From Paramuribaculum sp. (lineage in GTDB: Bacteria > Bacteroidota > Bacteroidia > Bacteroidales > Muribaculaceae), in contig JAIDJZ010000287.1 of NCBI GenBank assembly GCA_029051965.1, positions 1-11,411 on the forward strand: a stretch of DNA of 11,411 nucleotides, written 5' to 3'. The notes beneath the pieces were generated by a model. That model was not told the DNA's origin and did not search any database. It saw nothing but the letters and a program-made list of their open reading frames with translations. The position numbers and the translations under genes are program-made. Each line of letters begins with the position of its first letter. Within the stretch, counting starts at the first letter, position 1. Below, in pieces: positions 4,655 through 11,237 of this stretch.

Positions 4655-4747
4655 TTTTTGTCCTAACTTTGGACGCCGGTGACCCGAAAGATTTCAATGA
4701 AACTTGGTTTATTATCTCCAGTCGCCGAGTTCTTCAGATTTATTGCC

Positions 4748-4804
4748 TAATTTTGCGCTCGCAGGTAAAAACAATGCTGTTTTGAATAGCCTCAAATAAC
4801 TTTG
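4748..4804 (+). promoter_or_regulatory. Candidate -7 boxes upstream of the helicase-nuclease gene
   Basis: Two perfect TAnnTTTG matches face the helicase gene: TAATTTTG (4748-4755) and TAACTTTG (4797-4804). Neither has a good TTTG at the usual -33 distance; the TTTG at 4781-4784 is only 12 bases from the second box. The first would give a leader of about 60 bases, the second about 10. Which is used cannot be told. The rest of 4535-4820 holds only these divergent promoters and leaders, with no gene. Confidence 0.45.
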
Positions 4805-4820
4805 TTGACATAAGTAACAG

Positions 4821-7574
4821 ATGAATCTTGAAAATCATATCATAATAATCAATGGTGTTGATAGAACGTATCAAGTCGAGTCGATCCGGCTTGATGGTTA
4901 CCGGTATGCAATTAAATTTCAAAACTCCAACAAGATTTATTCATATTCAAGAAATAATGTGCTTTGGCAGAGCGATCCTTTGACACTTGATATCGCAAAC
5001 TGTCACATTTATGTGGATGGACGGCGAGAGGATAATGTCAAGTCAATAAATCTGTTTGTTGCAGATGCGGAAAAAATTTATGCGATTAAGTTCGGCAATG
5101 ATTTCGTAAAGCATTTTCCGGAAAGATCGGTTGATATCCGTAGATCTTGTCTATCGAATAGTACGACAGGAATACTCAGATATCTGCATCAATGTGCCAG
5201 ACTAAACACGCTTGGCACAGATGAAGAAAATGGGTCTTCAGAAGGCATCTTGTCGACAATTTATTCCAATATTGACTTTATTGACGAAAAAACTGCCGCC
5301 GCTGTTTATTTAGATCCGCGTCGAAATATAGAGAAGCGTAAACTCAGGGCGTTATTATTTCCGTTTGGTTGCAATGCAAGTCAGGAGAGAGCGGTCAAGG
5401 CAGCCCTGATGAATCAAATAAGTGTAATTCAAGGGCCTCCGGGAACCGGCAAGACTCAGACCATTCTAAATATTATAGCCAACCTTATCGTGGAAGGAAA
5501 GTCGATGCTGGTTGTCTCCAATAACAACTCTGCGACCGAGAATGTCTTGGAAAAACTTGACAAAAGCGGACTTGGATTTCTTGTAGCCCCACTCGGCAAT
5601 AGGGATAATAAGGAGGCTTTTATTGAAAATCAACCTTCATTGAATCCTGAATTGCCATCATGGCGCAAGACGGAAGCAGAGTTGAAAAGTTTGTCGGCAG
5701 AAGTGAAGGTGAATATTGAAAAGGTTGAAGCTGTTTTCAAACTGCAGGCGAGGTTGGCTGTTTGTCGTCAGGAACTGGCAGAGGTTGAGGTGGAAAAGGG
5801 GCATTTCCAACAAGAATATGCCGAAACTTTCAGCTGCAGGGAAGTCAAAATATCTTCTGATAAAATTCTTAGGATTTTACAACGTCTGAAGAATTATGCA
5901 AATAAATATCAAGCCGGTGCTTCCGGTTTTATTAAGCGTCTCAAACGCCTTTTTGATAAGCTTTGTCTTGAGCTGAGTCTGCGTCTGTCTGTAGCTATGA
6001 ACGACAAGGTTACTATTGAATCGATTCCTCGGGTAATAGCTCTGCTCTACTGGCAATTTTATATTCGCAGGATCTGGGAGCTGAAAAATGAGATTGAAGA
6101 TATTGAAAATCACCTGTCCCAACTCGATGCTACAACGTTGATGAAGTCGCTGGCTGATAGTTCAATGATGATTCTTAAGGCCTATGTGGCGCAACGATAT
6201 ACAAGCGAAAGGGAAAAAATAGCCTCGGTCAAGGGATTATTCAATAAAGGCGAGGCGGTACTCGCTGACTATCCTATAGTTCTCAGTACGACTTTCTCAG
6301 CCAAAACATGTTTTAGCAGCGATACTGTTTTTGACTACGTAATAATGGACGAAGCTTCGCAAGTTTCAGTTGAAACAGGTCTGCTGGCTCTCACATGCGC
6401 AAGGAATGCTGTTATTGTTGGAGATACGATGCAGTTGCCGAATGTTATAACAGATGATGGCAGGCTGAAATTGGATGAAATACGTCAGTCTTTTGATCTC
6501 CCTGATTCATACGATACTGCGAAGCATAGTTTTTTAAGTTCAGTATTGGCTACAATACCAACTGCTCCGGAGACTCTTCTCCGCGAGCATTATCGTTGTC
6601 ATCCAGATATAATTAATTTCTGCAATCAAAAGTTTTATGGTGGGAACTTACTTATAATGACAGAACGAACTGATGATGACGTTCATTTGCTTGCTTTGAC
6701 TACCGTGCCGGGGAAACACTGTCGTGGTCATTATAATCAACGCGAAATTGATGCCGTGAAAATTGAATTAGTGCCATTGCTCGGAAGTCGTGAGAATACT
6801 GGTATAATTGCGCCGTACAATAGTCAAGTGAACCAATTTCATGCTCAAATCCCAGATATAGAAGCCGCTACTGTCCATAAATATCAAGGACGTGAGAAGG
6901 ACACTATCATAATGAGTGTTACGGACGATGCTATTACAGAGTTTGCCGACAATGCCAATCTGCTGAATGTCGCAGTCTCCCGTGCCAAAGATAAATTCTG
7001 TCTGGTCGTATCCGGTAATACACAGGAACTCCGAGGCAATATCCACGATCTTATAAGATATATCAGATATCAGCAAGGGACTGTTATGCAGAGCAGGCTA
7101 CGCTCCATATTTGACTATCTGTTCTCTCACGTGGAGGAATTTCGTCGTGGAAAAGACTCTGAGTCTGAATACGCTTCAGAGAATTTGACCTTTGATTTAA
7201 TCGAAAAGATTCGTACGACATACCCTCATTTGTCGCACATAAAAGCACTGCGGAATTATCCTATGCGATATTTGATTTATGACACATCTGTCCTGTCGGA
7301 ACGGGAAACGAAGTATGCCTTACATCCATTTACACATATTGATTTCCTGGTAATCAACCGAGTTACAAAAGAGCCATTGCTTGCTATTGAAACAGATGGG
7401 TACAGCTATCATAATGAAAAGACCAGACAATTCCAGCGAGATCGTATGAAGGACAGGATTCTTGAAGTCTACGGTCTTACTTTGCTGCGCCTTTCAACGG
7501 TTGGTCATAGCGAAGAAGAAAGAATAGTTAATGCGCTTGCCGGTAGAATCGGGGGGCGGGATATAAAAAACTAA
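4821..7574 (+). CDS. Superfamily 1 (Upf1/DNA2-like) helicase fused to a PD-(D/E)XK-type nuclease
   Basis: A 917-residue protein. Residues 1-110 are beta-rich and contain two similar segments (about 7-48 and 62-106). The helicase has NASQERAV (185-192), Walker A GPPGTGKT (205-212), motif Ia VVSNNNSATENV (231-242), motif II DEAS (510-513), motif III GDTMQLP (534-540), REHYRCHP (588-595), motif V TVHKYQGRE (684-692) and NVAVSRAK (716-723). A helical, coiled-coil-prone insert (about 281-480) lies between motifs Ia and II. The C-terminus (about 800-905) has HID (839-841), ETDG (857-860) and a downstream RDRMKDR...LLRLS block, as in DUF2726/DUF559/MTES_1575-like nucleases. All catalytic motifs look intact. 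Family knowledge: COG1112-type helicase-nuclease fusions occur in anti-phage systems such as Mokosh, which uses a different (PLD) nuclease. The defence role is inference. One sampled 60-base line is about 42% G+C against 53% in metG and 68% in umuC, which suggests transfer. It has no same-strand partner gene. Confidence 0.9.
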   Translation: MNLENHIIIINGVDRTYQVESIRLDGYRYAIKFQNSNKIYSYSRNNVLWQSDPLTLDIANCHIYVDGRREDNVKSINLFVADAEKIYAIKFGNDFVKHFPERSVDIRRSCLSNSTTGILRYLHQCARLNTLGTDEENGSSEGILSTIYSNIDFIDEKTAAAVYLDPRRNIEKRKLRALLFPFGCNASQERAVKAALMNQISVIQGPPGTGKTQTILNIIANLIVEGKSMLVVSNNNSATENVLEKLDKSGLGFLVAPLGNRDNKEAFIENQPSLNPELPSWRKTEAELKSLSAEVKVNIEKVEAVFKLQARLAVCRQELAEVEVEKGHFQQEYAETFSCREVKISSDKILRILQRLKNYANKYQAGASGFIKRLKRLFDKLCLELSLRLSVAMNDKVTIESIPRVIALLYWQFYIRRIWELKNEIEDIENHLSQLDATTLMKSLADSSMMILKAYVAQRYTSEREKIASVKGLFNKGEAVLADYPIVLSTTFSAKTCFSSDTVFDYVIMDEASQVSVETGLLALTCARNAVIVGDTMQLPNVITDDGRLKLDEIRQSFDLPDSYDTAKHSFLSSVLATIPTAPETLLREHYRCHPDIINFCNQKFYGGNLLIMTERTDDDVHLLALTTVPGKHCRGHYNQREIDAVKIELVPLLGSRENTGIIAPYNSQVNQFHAQIPDIEAATVHKYQGREKDTIIMSVTDDAITEFADNANLLNVAVSRAKDKFCLVVSGNTQELRGNIHDLIRYIRYQQGTVMQSRLRSIFDYLFSHVEEFRRGKDSESEYASENLTFDLIEKIRTTYPHLSHIKALRNYPMRYLIYDTSVLSERETKYALHPFTHIDFLVINRVTKEPLLAIETDGYSYHNEKTRQFQRDRMKDRILEVYGLTLLRLSTVGHSEEERIVNALAGRIGGRDIKN

Positions 7575-7599
7575 GGAAAGTCTCACGACTTTCCTTTAG
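7565..7599 (-). terminator. Rho-independent terminator of the small RNA, overlapping the helicase stop
   Basis: The plus-strand arms CTAAGGAAAGTC (7571-7582) and GACTTTCCTTTAG (7587-7599) pair around a TCAC loop with one bulged base. On the minus strand the hairpin is followed at once by T6 (7570-7565), a textbook intrinsic terminator for leftward transcription. On the plus strand no T-run follows, so helicase termination would be weaker. The helicase TAA (7572-7574) lies inside the left arm. Confidence 0.8.
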
Positions 7600-7779
7600 C
7601 TTCAAATACACAATTATCTATAAAACAACTATTGTACGTCTGTCTACATTCAGAGTGGTTTCTTATGGGCACACTAAAGCCGCCGATAATTGAAACCTGC
7701 GTTAGTCGGGATGTGGCGATAAATTTTTAGAGCATCTCTTTTAGATTAGTGCACTTCGCAACAGTTATCCCTTTAAACA
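7566..7779 (-). ncRNA. Candidate structured small RNA of about 210 nt, family unassigned (possibly 6S-like)
   Basis: A complete leftward transcription unit without an ORF: a consensus -7 box at 7792-7785 and an intrinsic terminator at 7599-7565. The sequence offers nested long-range pairing. AACTGTTG (7766-7759) pairs with CAATAGTT (7634-7627), GTGCACTAA (7754-7746) with TTAGTGTGC (7677-7669, two G-U pairs), and CGCC (7718-7715) with GGCG (7684-7681); there is also a small AGAG-ATG-CTCT hairpin. The ends-paired architecture and length suit a 6S RNA or the Bacteroidales-1 type of motif, but the internal bulge is asymmetric and I do not recognise diagnostic sequence. It lacks tmRNA features (CCA end, tag reading frame), the RNase P core, and the SRP tetraloop region. 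The exact 5' end is estimated from the -7 box. Confidence 0.6.
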
Positions 7780-9422: not shown

Positions 9423-10727
9423 TCAGTTTCCTTTTTTGGCGGCGGTTTCGGCTGAGGGTGCTGAATGGATTTCGATGATGTCGGAGAGTCGCATGGTGTA
9501 GAGCCGTGAGTCGTGCTCGCGGCGCACGAGGTTGTCGATGCCGTTGCCGGCCGATGCGAGGTGGATGCGGTTGCGGGTGGAGAGGTTGCGGTTGATCGTG
9601 TCTATTGTTTCCATCAGCCGGCGCTGTTTTTCGTCGTCGGCCACGCTGGCGAATAGGTTGCGCTGGATGCGGTCACGCGGCCGGAGGCGTCCGATTGTCA
9701 CGCCTGCTTTTTTGTAGCCGTAGCCTTTGCGGAAGATCGATCGCAGGGCTTCGGTCGCGGCGCTTGCGAGCTCGGGGGTGAAGTCGGTCGGGTCGGCTAA
9801 GCGTAGGGTTGCGGTGTTGAAGTACTGCGGGTCGTGCTGGTGAAAGCGGTTGGTGCAGAGGTAGACGGTGATTTCCTCGGCGGCCGAATTCTGGCGCCGG
9901 AGTTTGCGGGCTATGATGGAGGTGAAGGTGCAGACGGCCTTTCGCAGGTCTTCGAAGTCATACAGTTCGGTCGCGAAAGAGCGCGACGAGGTGATTGTCT
10001 GTTTGTCGGGTGTCGCTTTTTCAACCGGGATCGACGGGATGCCGTTCAGTTCGCGCCAGGTTCGTTTTCCGGTGGAGTTGAAGAGCCGGCCGATTGTGGC
10101 CTCGTCGAGGTCGGCGAGCTGACGGGCTGTGGTGATGCCGCGGTCTGTGAGGCGTTTCGAGTGGCGGCGTCCGATTCCCCATGTGTCGCGGATGTCGGTG
10201 AGTTCGAGCGCTTTCAGACGCTTCTCCTCGCTGTCGATGAGGCATGCGCCGCGGTAGCCCGCATGTTTTTTTGCGAAGCCGGCGGCGATTTTGGCAAGTG
10301 TTTTGGTCGGGGCTATGCCGACCGATACGGGGATGCCGGTGTGCCGGCGGACGTGTCTGACGATGTAGCGTCCGAAGTCTTCTATGTCGCTTGTGCCGGC
10401 GTCGATTGTCATGAAGGCTTCGTCGATCGAGTAGATTTCGATCGGGTTGGAGCACATGGATTCGAGGGTTGCCATGACGCGGGAGGAGATGTCGCCATAG
10501 AGCCGATGGTTGCCGGAGATGACGGCTACGTTGTTGGCTTCGCAGAATTCTCTGATCCTGAAGAATGGCATGCCGCGCTTGAGTCCGATGCTTTTCGCTT
10601 CGTTGGAGAGGGCTACGGCGCATCCGTCGTTGTTGCTGAGCACGATGACCGGCCGCCCGATCAGGTCGGGGCGGAAGAGTCGTTCGCACGAGACGAAAAA
10701 GTTGTTGCAGTCGATCAGGGCAATCAT
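9423..10727 (-). CDS. umuC: UmuC, catalytic subunit of DNA polymerase V (Y family)
   Basis: Error-prone translesion polymerase that copies past DNA damage together with processed UmuD. At 434 residues it is close to the E. coli protein (422). The palm carries Asp6 in IDCNNFF and Asp102-Glu103 in YSIDEAF, matching the E. coli catalytic residues. Phe11 occupies the steric-gate position (Tyr in E. coli). The helix-hairpin-helix region is about 176-215 ([13 protein letters not shown]), the little finger about 240-350. QRNLF (355-359) fits a beta-clamp-binding motif. The C-terminal tail, about 380-421, is the UmuC-specific extension, ending in MRLSDIIEI. The start is 16 bases after the umuD stop, so the two form a umuDC operon. 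No truncation or missing catalytic residue is seen. Confidence 0.97.
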
Positions 10728-10743
10728 TGGCGGAGGGTGGCGG

Positions 10744-11196
10744 TCAGTGGCGGCGTCGGGTGGCTTTTATTGTATAGGTGACGATGCCCCATATGATCAG
10801 CTCGTTTCCGTCTCTGACGGGTATGGGGGCATAGTTGTGGTTGGAGGGCATGAGGAAGATGTCGCCGTTTCCGGCGATGCGTATTCTTTTAAGGGTGAAT
10901 TCTCCGTCGAGGCAGCAGACTGCGAGATCGCCGTTGGTGGCTTCGATCGCGCGGTCGATTATGATGATGTCGCCTTCTTCGATTCCTTCTTCGATCATTG
11001 AGTCGCCGACGACGCGGCCGTAGAATGTGGCGACCGGGTGCTGGATCAGATCCCGGTTGAGGTCGATGGTCTCCGTAATGTAGTCCTGTGCCGGGCTTGG
11101 AAAGCCGGCGCGAATGCCGGAGTCGGCATATGGAAGCTCGAGCCGGGACGATGTGTCGGATCTGTAGAGCAGGATTGTTTCTTCTGTTGCTTTCAT
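10744..11196 (-). CDS. umuD: UmuD, self-cleaving SOS protein (S24 peptidase family)
   Basis: Partner of UmuC. RecA-stimulated self-cleavage removes the N-terminal arm and activates polymerase V. From ATG 11196 it is 150 residues (E. coli 139). The expected cleavage site is Ala30-Gly31 in IRAGFPSP. The catalytic pair is Ser66 (VVGDSM) and Lys103 (EFTLKRI), 37 apart as in E. coli (60 and 97). It lacks the LexA/CI-type helix-turn-helix, so it is not a repressor. An in-frame TTG at 11208 would add MHLP but lies inside the -7 box, so the ATG is preferred. The predicted transcript then begins only a few bases before the ATG. I recognise no LexA operator. Confidence 0.95.
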   Translation of the reverse strand: MKATEETILLYRSDTSSRLELPYADSGIRAGFPSPAQDYITETIDLNRDLIQHPVATFYGRVVGDSMIEEGIEEGDIIIIDRAIEATNGDLAVCCLDGEFTLKRIRIAGNGDIFLMPSNHNYAPIPVRDGNELIIWGIVTYTIKATRRRH

Positions 11197-11205
11197 AGGT
11201 AGATG

Positions 11206-11237
11206 CAAAATTAAGTATAATTTTTCTGTAGGTGAAA
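11206..11237 (-). promoter_or_regulatory. umuDC promoter, near-leaderless
   Basis: On the minus strand TAATTTTG (11213-11206) is an exact -7 box, and TTTC (11237-11234), 20 bases upstream, is one mismatch from the -33 TTTG. The box ends 9 bases before the chosen umuD ATG (11196), which implies a leader of only a few bases. Confidence 0.55.

Follow-up and report, generated by a model that had tools for sequence, protein, structure and literature searches.

A helicase-nuclease gene at positions 4821-7574 (+ strand) of the Paramuribaculum sp. DNA stretch analysed here (the window, 11,411 nucleotides) appears to be a horizontally acquired, self-sufficient anti-phage gene. We put the probability of this reading, which we infer from genomic context and domain architecture, at roughly 0.75. 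The gene is probably a one-gene anti-phage system as yet unnamed in the family libraries searched. The defence reading is supported by the architecture of the protein, its invariant motifs, the patchy distribution of the gene, a gene-free spacer in relatives, the location of homologues in defence islands and the phage integrases that adjoin some of them. Counting against it are the lack of defence neighbours in the window, the weak excess of defence genes around more distant homologues, the housekeeping setting of the Bacteroides finegoldii copy, the broken state of some copies, an N-terminal region without a named relative and the presence of RNA helicases among the closest folds.

The 917-aa ORF runs intact from ATG to TAA and encodes, as the original prediction held, an SF1 helicase with a C-terminal nuclease of the PD-(D/E)XK type. 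Pfam profiles match AAA_11 (residues 184-543, 2e-25), AAA_12 (582-730, 5.5e-21) and DUF2726 (PF10881; 838-906, 2.7e-9, 37.3 bits vs a cut-off of 24.7); REase_MTES_1575, which is related to DUF2726, matches under its own cut-off. The AAA_11/AAA_12 core, together with SF1 motifs I, II, III and VI, assigns the motor to the Upf1-like SF1 helicases, and the score above the cut-off, with a conserved acidic/basic site, assigns the nuclease to DUF2726. On the + strand, the chain starts with two poorly conserved beta modules of ~50 aa in tandem (residues 1-112; 4821..5156), followed by the first part of RecA1 with the Walker A motif GPPGTGKT at 205-212, including Lys211 (residues 181-282; 5361..5666), a long helical insert with the lowest conservation (residues about 283-480; 5667..6260), the rest of RecA1, containing the DExx box (Asp510 Glu511), together with RecA2, containing motif VI (Ser720-Arg721) (residues 481-752; 6261..7076), and the nuclease (residues 781-910; 7161..7550), with the conserved residues Glu787, Asp841, Glu857, His864, Arg873, Asp874 and Lys877. 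The long helical insert had been predicted as well, and the AlphaFold2 model, built on 60 alignment rows (mean pLDDT 86.5, pTM 0.81), places a helical insert of ~200 aa at residues about 283-480. In the same model, the order of helices and strands in the nuclease part reads like a PD-(D/E)XK core. Profile comparison of the two beta modules with each other (hhalign) gives a probability of 77% in local mode (E 2e-5) and 20% in global mode (2e-4). Searches against PDB sequences yield no convincing relative of residues 1-112 (best E 0.99) and none of the nuclease part alone.

Conservation is concentrated in the motor and the nuclease. In an alignment of 60 rows, window copy included, K211, E511, Q538, R721, E787, D841, E857, H864, R873, D874 and K877 are identical in all 60, in keeping with the earlier choice of Lys211, Asp841 and Glu857 as key residues, and D510 and D859 are identical in 59 of the 60. 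Mean pairwise column identity is 0.63-0.67 in the RecA parts and 0.53 in the nuclease vs 0.34 in the N-terminal modules and 0.30 in the insert; thus, the motor and the blade are preserved and the outer parts vary. Computation over 21 pairs of seven close homologues shows that these are under purifying selection (dN/dS 0.07-0.18, a range that excludes the seven pairs involving the window copy, where dS is inestimable).

The structural neighbours bear on the substrate, which is probably phage nucleic acid, specifically DNA. Foldseek finds 134 PDB matches at E<=0.001, led by IGHMBP2, UPF1, Senataxin and DNA2, with low TM-scores (about 0.36 by query, 0.52 by IGHMBP2), and the closest solved folds include both RNA helicases and the DNA enzyme DNA2, which is the top PDB match by sequence. 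DNA2, IGHMBP2 and UPF1 belong to the same SF1 helicase family as the window protein, but the nuclease of DNA2 is N-terminal and RecB/Cas4-like, and UPF1 and IGHMBP2 are not known to have a nuclease of the present kind. It is conceivable, although distinctly less probable, that the defence role is the same and the target is RNA, such that a Upf1/IGHMBP2-like translocase degrades phage transcripts or stops translation. The Foldseek leaders IGHMBP2 and UPF1, some of them in RNA complexes, fit such a target, as do the UPF1-like CnuH helicases of CoCoNuTs, which passages of PMC11090510 present as predicted to be RNA-targeting. Against it, DNA2, of the same helicase family, works on DNA, and DUF2726 is described in a passage of PMC3710099 as a REase-fold DNase; it is because of this nuclease family that we favour DNA.

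None of the known systems compared accounts for the protein. Mokosh shares the SF1 helicase core, and PADLOC ranks MkoC (Mokosh type II) first (2e-52), but MkoC and MkoA (type I) are matched in helicase stretches only (the best one aligns 503-734 with 670-944 of 1136). The 13 Pfam families matched include DUF2726 in place of the PLD domain that the review PMC10952713 lists for both type I and type II Mokosh, so the distinction from Mokosh that had been drawn on this domain holds. Hhe (NF042953) and ProA (NF058533) have the SF1 helicase core partly in common with the protein (5.1e-33 and 1.3e-41, respectively), but at 113.7 bits vs an NCBIfam cut-off of 2000 and 142.2 vs 1500, with models 1797 and 1903 positions long. 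YprA is a protein of a different helicase family, SF2, and ARMADA, to which it belongs, is a multi-gene system. The likeness lies in the fusion of a helicase to a C-terminal PD-(D/E)xK nuclease, of the Vsr type in YprA, as described in PMC12458937. The mechanistic analogue is Hachiman, where, according to PMC12278908, a sensor helicase controls a nuclease and can restrain and then activate it. Unlike the window protein, Hachiman consists of two proteins, HamB and HamA (DUF1837); both are outside the 23 PADLOC families matched, the protein shows no match to the pair, and the window neighbours are housekeeping genes. Membership in Mokosh, Hhe, ProA and Hachiman is, then, ruled out by the profiles. 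PADLOC (2023) contains no model matching at full length and NCBIfam (2026) none above the cut-off, and none of the open-access titles and abstracts listed by our searches describes a defence system that joins DUF2726 to a helicase.

The gene stands alone in its setting, as had been noted: the six other window genes carry ordinary Pfam functions (sigma-54 activator, asparaginase, metG, CobW-family GTPase, UmuC-like polymerase and S24 peptidase). The genes for the UmuC-like polymerase and the S24 peptidase (UmuD-like) lie near the insertion, at 9423-11208 on the - strand. The helicase gene has a GC content of 41.7% and a GC3 of 39.1% vs 55.6-60.4% and 68.8-77.2%, respectively, for the six others. 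The contrast that had suggested an A+T-rich islet is thus real, but not the values sampled for metG (53%) and umuC (68%), which over the whole genes are 56.9% and 59.8%. The GC content of the helicase gene is also lower than that of the flanks at 63 of 72 homologue loci.

Comparison with relatives shows that the gene is a clean insertion between metG and cobW. The inserted stretch, about 2.9 kb (4671..7564), is delimited by homology breakpoints: homology to the nearest relative by metG (G221, 94%) stops at 4670 and restarts at 7565, and this genome has 68 bp in the metG-cobW spacer in place of the insert, with its metG and cobW matches 580 bases apart. In G178, where metG is 89% identical, these matches are 472 bases apart; both relatives, of the same genus, have the short spacer with the helicase gene absent from it. 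The right-hand homology begins at 7555 for G178 and at 7561 for G105, and the final helicase codons and the stop overlap the 3'-terminal T-run of a conserved small-RNA-like element.

This element (7558-7650, - strand) is a likely small RNA gene, laid out as a near-constant core of ~40 nt, a terminator-like stem and a T-run, and the helicase insertion is placed at its 3' end. Within the genus, 25 of 34 genomes have a match, weak in a few cases, as does 1 of 27 other genomes, and the element is not always close to metG. In 24 sequences, the stem consists of standard pairs in 98.8% of cases, with 17 two-sided changes, a level reached by 0 of 500 shuffles. The Rfam family BTnc231 scores 24.4 bits against it, vs a gathering threshold of 80.4.

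The distribution of the gene is patchy. Of 392 genomes sampled across the order, 14 carry it, its own genome counted (E<=1e-60). Even sampling of the family gave 247 genomes, of which 43 have a match at E<=1e-10, weak in many cases, and 20, counted by hand, have one at E<=1e-180, some with genes that are split or end at contig edges. Degraded copies occur, as fragments in G032, G070 and G153 and with one internal stop in G136. A GTDB contig collection yields 156 stretches with relatives, the best 80 of which are mostly from Bacteroidales or Clostridia; the closest homologues are 71-72% identical to the window protein. G178 has its own copy at another genomic place, only 53% identical, and in a tree of 32 helicase rows this copy falls outside the clade formed by the window copy and 11 others (SH-aLRT 100); those of the 11 with a recognisable genus are from other genera. 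Plasmid records give seven matches, four of them covering >=80% of the protein, and phage records two, both partial. The original prediction had been set against vertical inheritance at the same locus without a link to defence, and no such pattern is seen; a vertical core gene is ruled out by the gene-free spacer, the patchiness and the tree.

No conserved partner gene was detected when neighbours were clustered at 82 loci, where the biggest cluster other than the helicase spans seven loci. A small gene adjoins the helicase at five loci; the two members scanned are FMN-reductase-like, and this neighbour looks incidental.

The defence role is likely because several close relatives are located among known anti-virus genes. 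We scanned up to six genes of >=100 aa per side at nine close loci (91 proteins; four of 13 close loci, L032, L037, L038 and L048, were left out because the contig was short or the gene incomplete) and, as controls, 88 proteins encoded in nine arbitrarily placed regions of nine gene-carrying genomes of the same family, six of which are apparently the same as test genomes and one of which contributed a region of just 2,369 bases. At E<=1e-30, PADLOC matches 88 families among the neighbours vs 0 among the controls, the totals being families rather than proteins, given that one protein may match several. The 25 neighbour families that were listed include type I R-M, Druantia III, Azaca, AbiEii and candidate systems. 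Protein-by-protein scans of nine neighbours, chosen for large size or a defence-like look, identify type I methylase and restriction subunits (HsdM/HsdR) in L047 and L074, ZacB and ZacC in L034, DruE (Druantia III) in L033, and HsdR three bases upstream of a more distant homologue (L051); the ninth protein (L110:7985-10933) has no match. Pfam searches on ten more neighbours reveal Fic (L033) and a DEAD helicase (L049), leave two unmatched (L034) and otherwise return ordinary proteins, FMN reductases and a TonB-type receptor among them.

A second, larger helicase-like ORF is located in L110 (10970-14995), ~6 kb downstream of the homologue; it is at least 1342 aa long, open at the contig end and 40% identical across residues 180-251. 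PDC-S37 is matched at 4e-212 by one of the 91 close-locus neighbours, and this is possibly the same ORF.

In a wider test, with two genes per side in 30 genome pairs across the wider family (10 of 40 pairs were dropped in random order to respect a residue cap; 115 vs 117 proteins, E<=1e-15), PADLOC matches 67 vs 32 families (again, not proteins), a weak excess around distant homologues. Of the families, 25 were listed for each set, and the listed control matches include four mad3, two mad2, type I and II R-M, ThsA, LmuA and AriA, and in the Pfam tallies ordinary families predominate in both sets. The proposed association with defence islands stands for the close homologues, whose non-random location in islands and mobile elements is as expected of defence genes, and is weak farther out. 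Around the window copy, the 11.4 kb contain no defence gene.

The P. distasonis homologue (39% identical) is preceded by SNF2, N6-methylase and TIR genes, and an integrase lies about 9 kb farther on. An E. coli plasmid carries a relative (33% over 80%) in the vicinity of AlpA, PAPS-reductase, ParB and transposase genes. The surroundings of the B. finegoldii homologue (45%) are housekeeping genes, with no evident defence gene among 13 features. The B. finegoldii locus (L066) also carries a second, broken copy at 15916-17014, ~3 kb downstream of the intact gene. In the viral contig L112, the gene directly upstream of the helicase encodes an integrase (phrog_1, 1.7e-73), and Erf-like and Mu Gam-like genes lie 6-7 kb upstream; the contig L111 carries an identical helicase gene and, at the integrase position, a 96% identical protein. 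The surroundings in L112, along with the top rank of DNA2 among PDB sequences, could be taken to mean that the protein is a Dna2-like repair or recombination helicase-nuclease that serves the replication or recombination of mobile elements themselves rather than defence. We consider this improbable: several close homologues are chromosomal and lie beside R-M, Druantia and Azaca genes, the side of an integrase is a common site of prophage cargo genes too, and the DNA2 nuclease differs from the one here in type and position.

The gene likely has its own promoter/leader (4797..4820, + strand), TAACTTTG, which ends 16 nt 5' of the ATG and which we take to be a Bacteroidetes -7 type promoter, TAnnTTTG. 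Similar 22-bp sequences with a Bacteroidetes-type promoter box are found directly 5' of the gene in several close copies. In L036 and L047, near-identical 22-bp sequences flank the gene on both sides (9978-9999 and 12737-12758; 0 expected in shuffles); these could be promoters or recombination sites. In the window, the repeat is not found at <=3 mismatches, only a diverged left copy being present, which makes it improbable as a general mobility signal.

In DNA comparisons of 13 close loci and the window (alignments >300 bases), copies 80-93% identical often align across the gene and little more (L031/L047, L036/L033). Some pairs do have flanking DNA in common, downstream in L032, L033, L034 and L048 and in L036/L047, and as an upstream block in L033/L047. 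A doubtful extension of the defence reading is that promoter and gene together form a mobile defence cassette of about 2.8 kb, exchanged into and between defence islands at the promoter-like repeat TAACTTTGTnGGCATAGTAACA; if true, this would explain why copies 80-93% identical have the gene and a few 5' bases in common and mostly differ in their flanks. That the gene is instead a selfish single-gene element, whose nuclease spreads its own gene and protects the cell only incidentally, is very unlikely: the DNA homology of near-identical copies does often end near the gene ends, and the near-repeat on both gene sides in L036 and L047 is suggestive, but the right-hand repeat occurs in only two of the 11 copies whose ends were checked by eye, is missing in the window and is promoter-like, no recurrent target site was seen, and homing needs no motor domain.

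For the putative anti-phage gene, the fusion of motor and blade suggests a helicase that senses an exposed strand or loads on it, moves and delivers the nuclease there. The variable N-terminal beta modules and the helical insert may contact or recognise the substrate. The motor would load on a strand exposed in the course of phage infection, most likely single-stranded DNA, and move along it, powered by ATP; this movement would position or release the C-terminal nuclease, which would then cut phage nucleic acid. Host DNA could be cut too, an abortive outcome like the one reported for Hachiman.

Given that PADLOC and NCBIfam offer no full match, defence-gene counts derived from their models would miss or misname this gene, which is found in Bacteroidales and Lachnospiraceae genomes. 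If the mechanism proposed here is right, these bacteria would possess a compact one-protein anti-phage system, with a sensor motor and an effector nuclease in a single chain, that would lend itself to dissection more readily than Hachiman and other analogues made of two genes, and the variable N-terminal modules and the insert would be ready targets for trigger-swap experiments.
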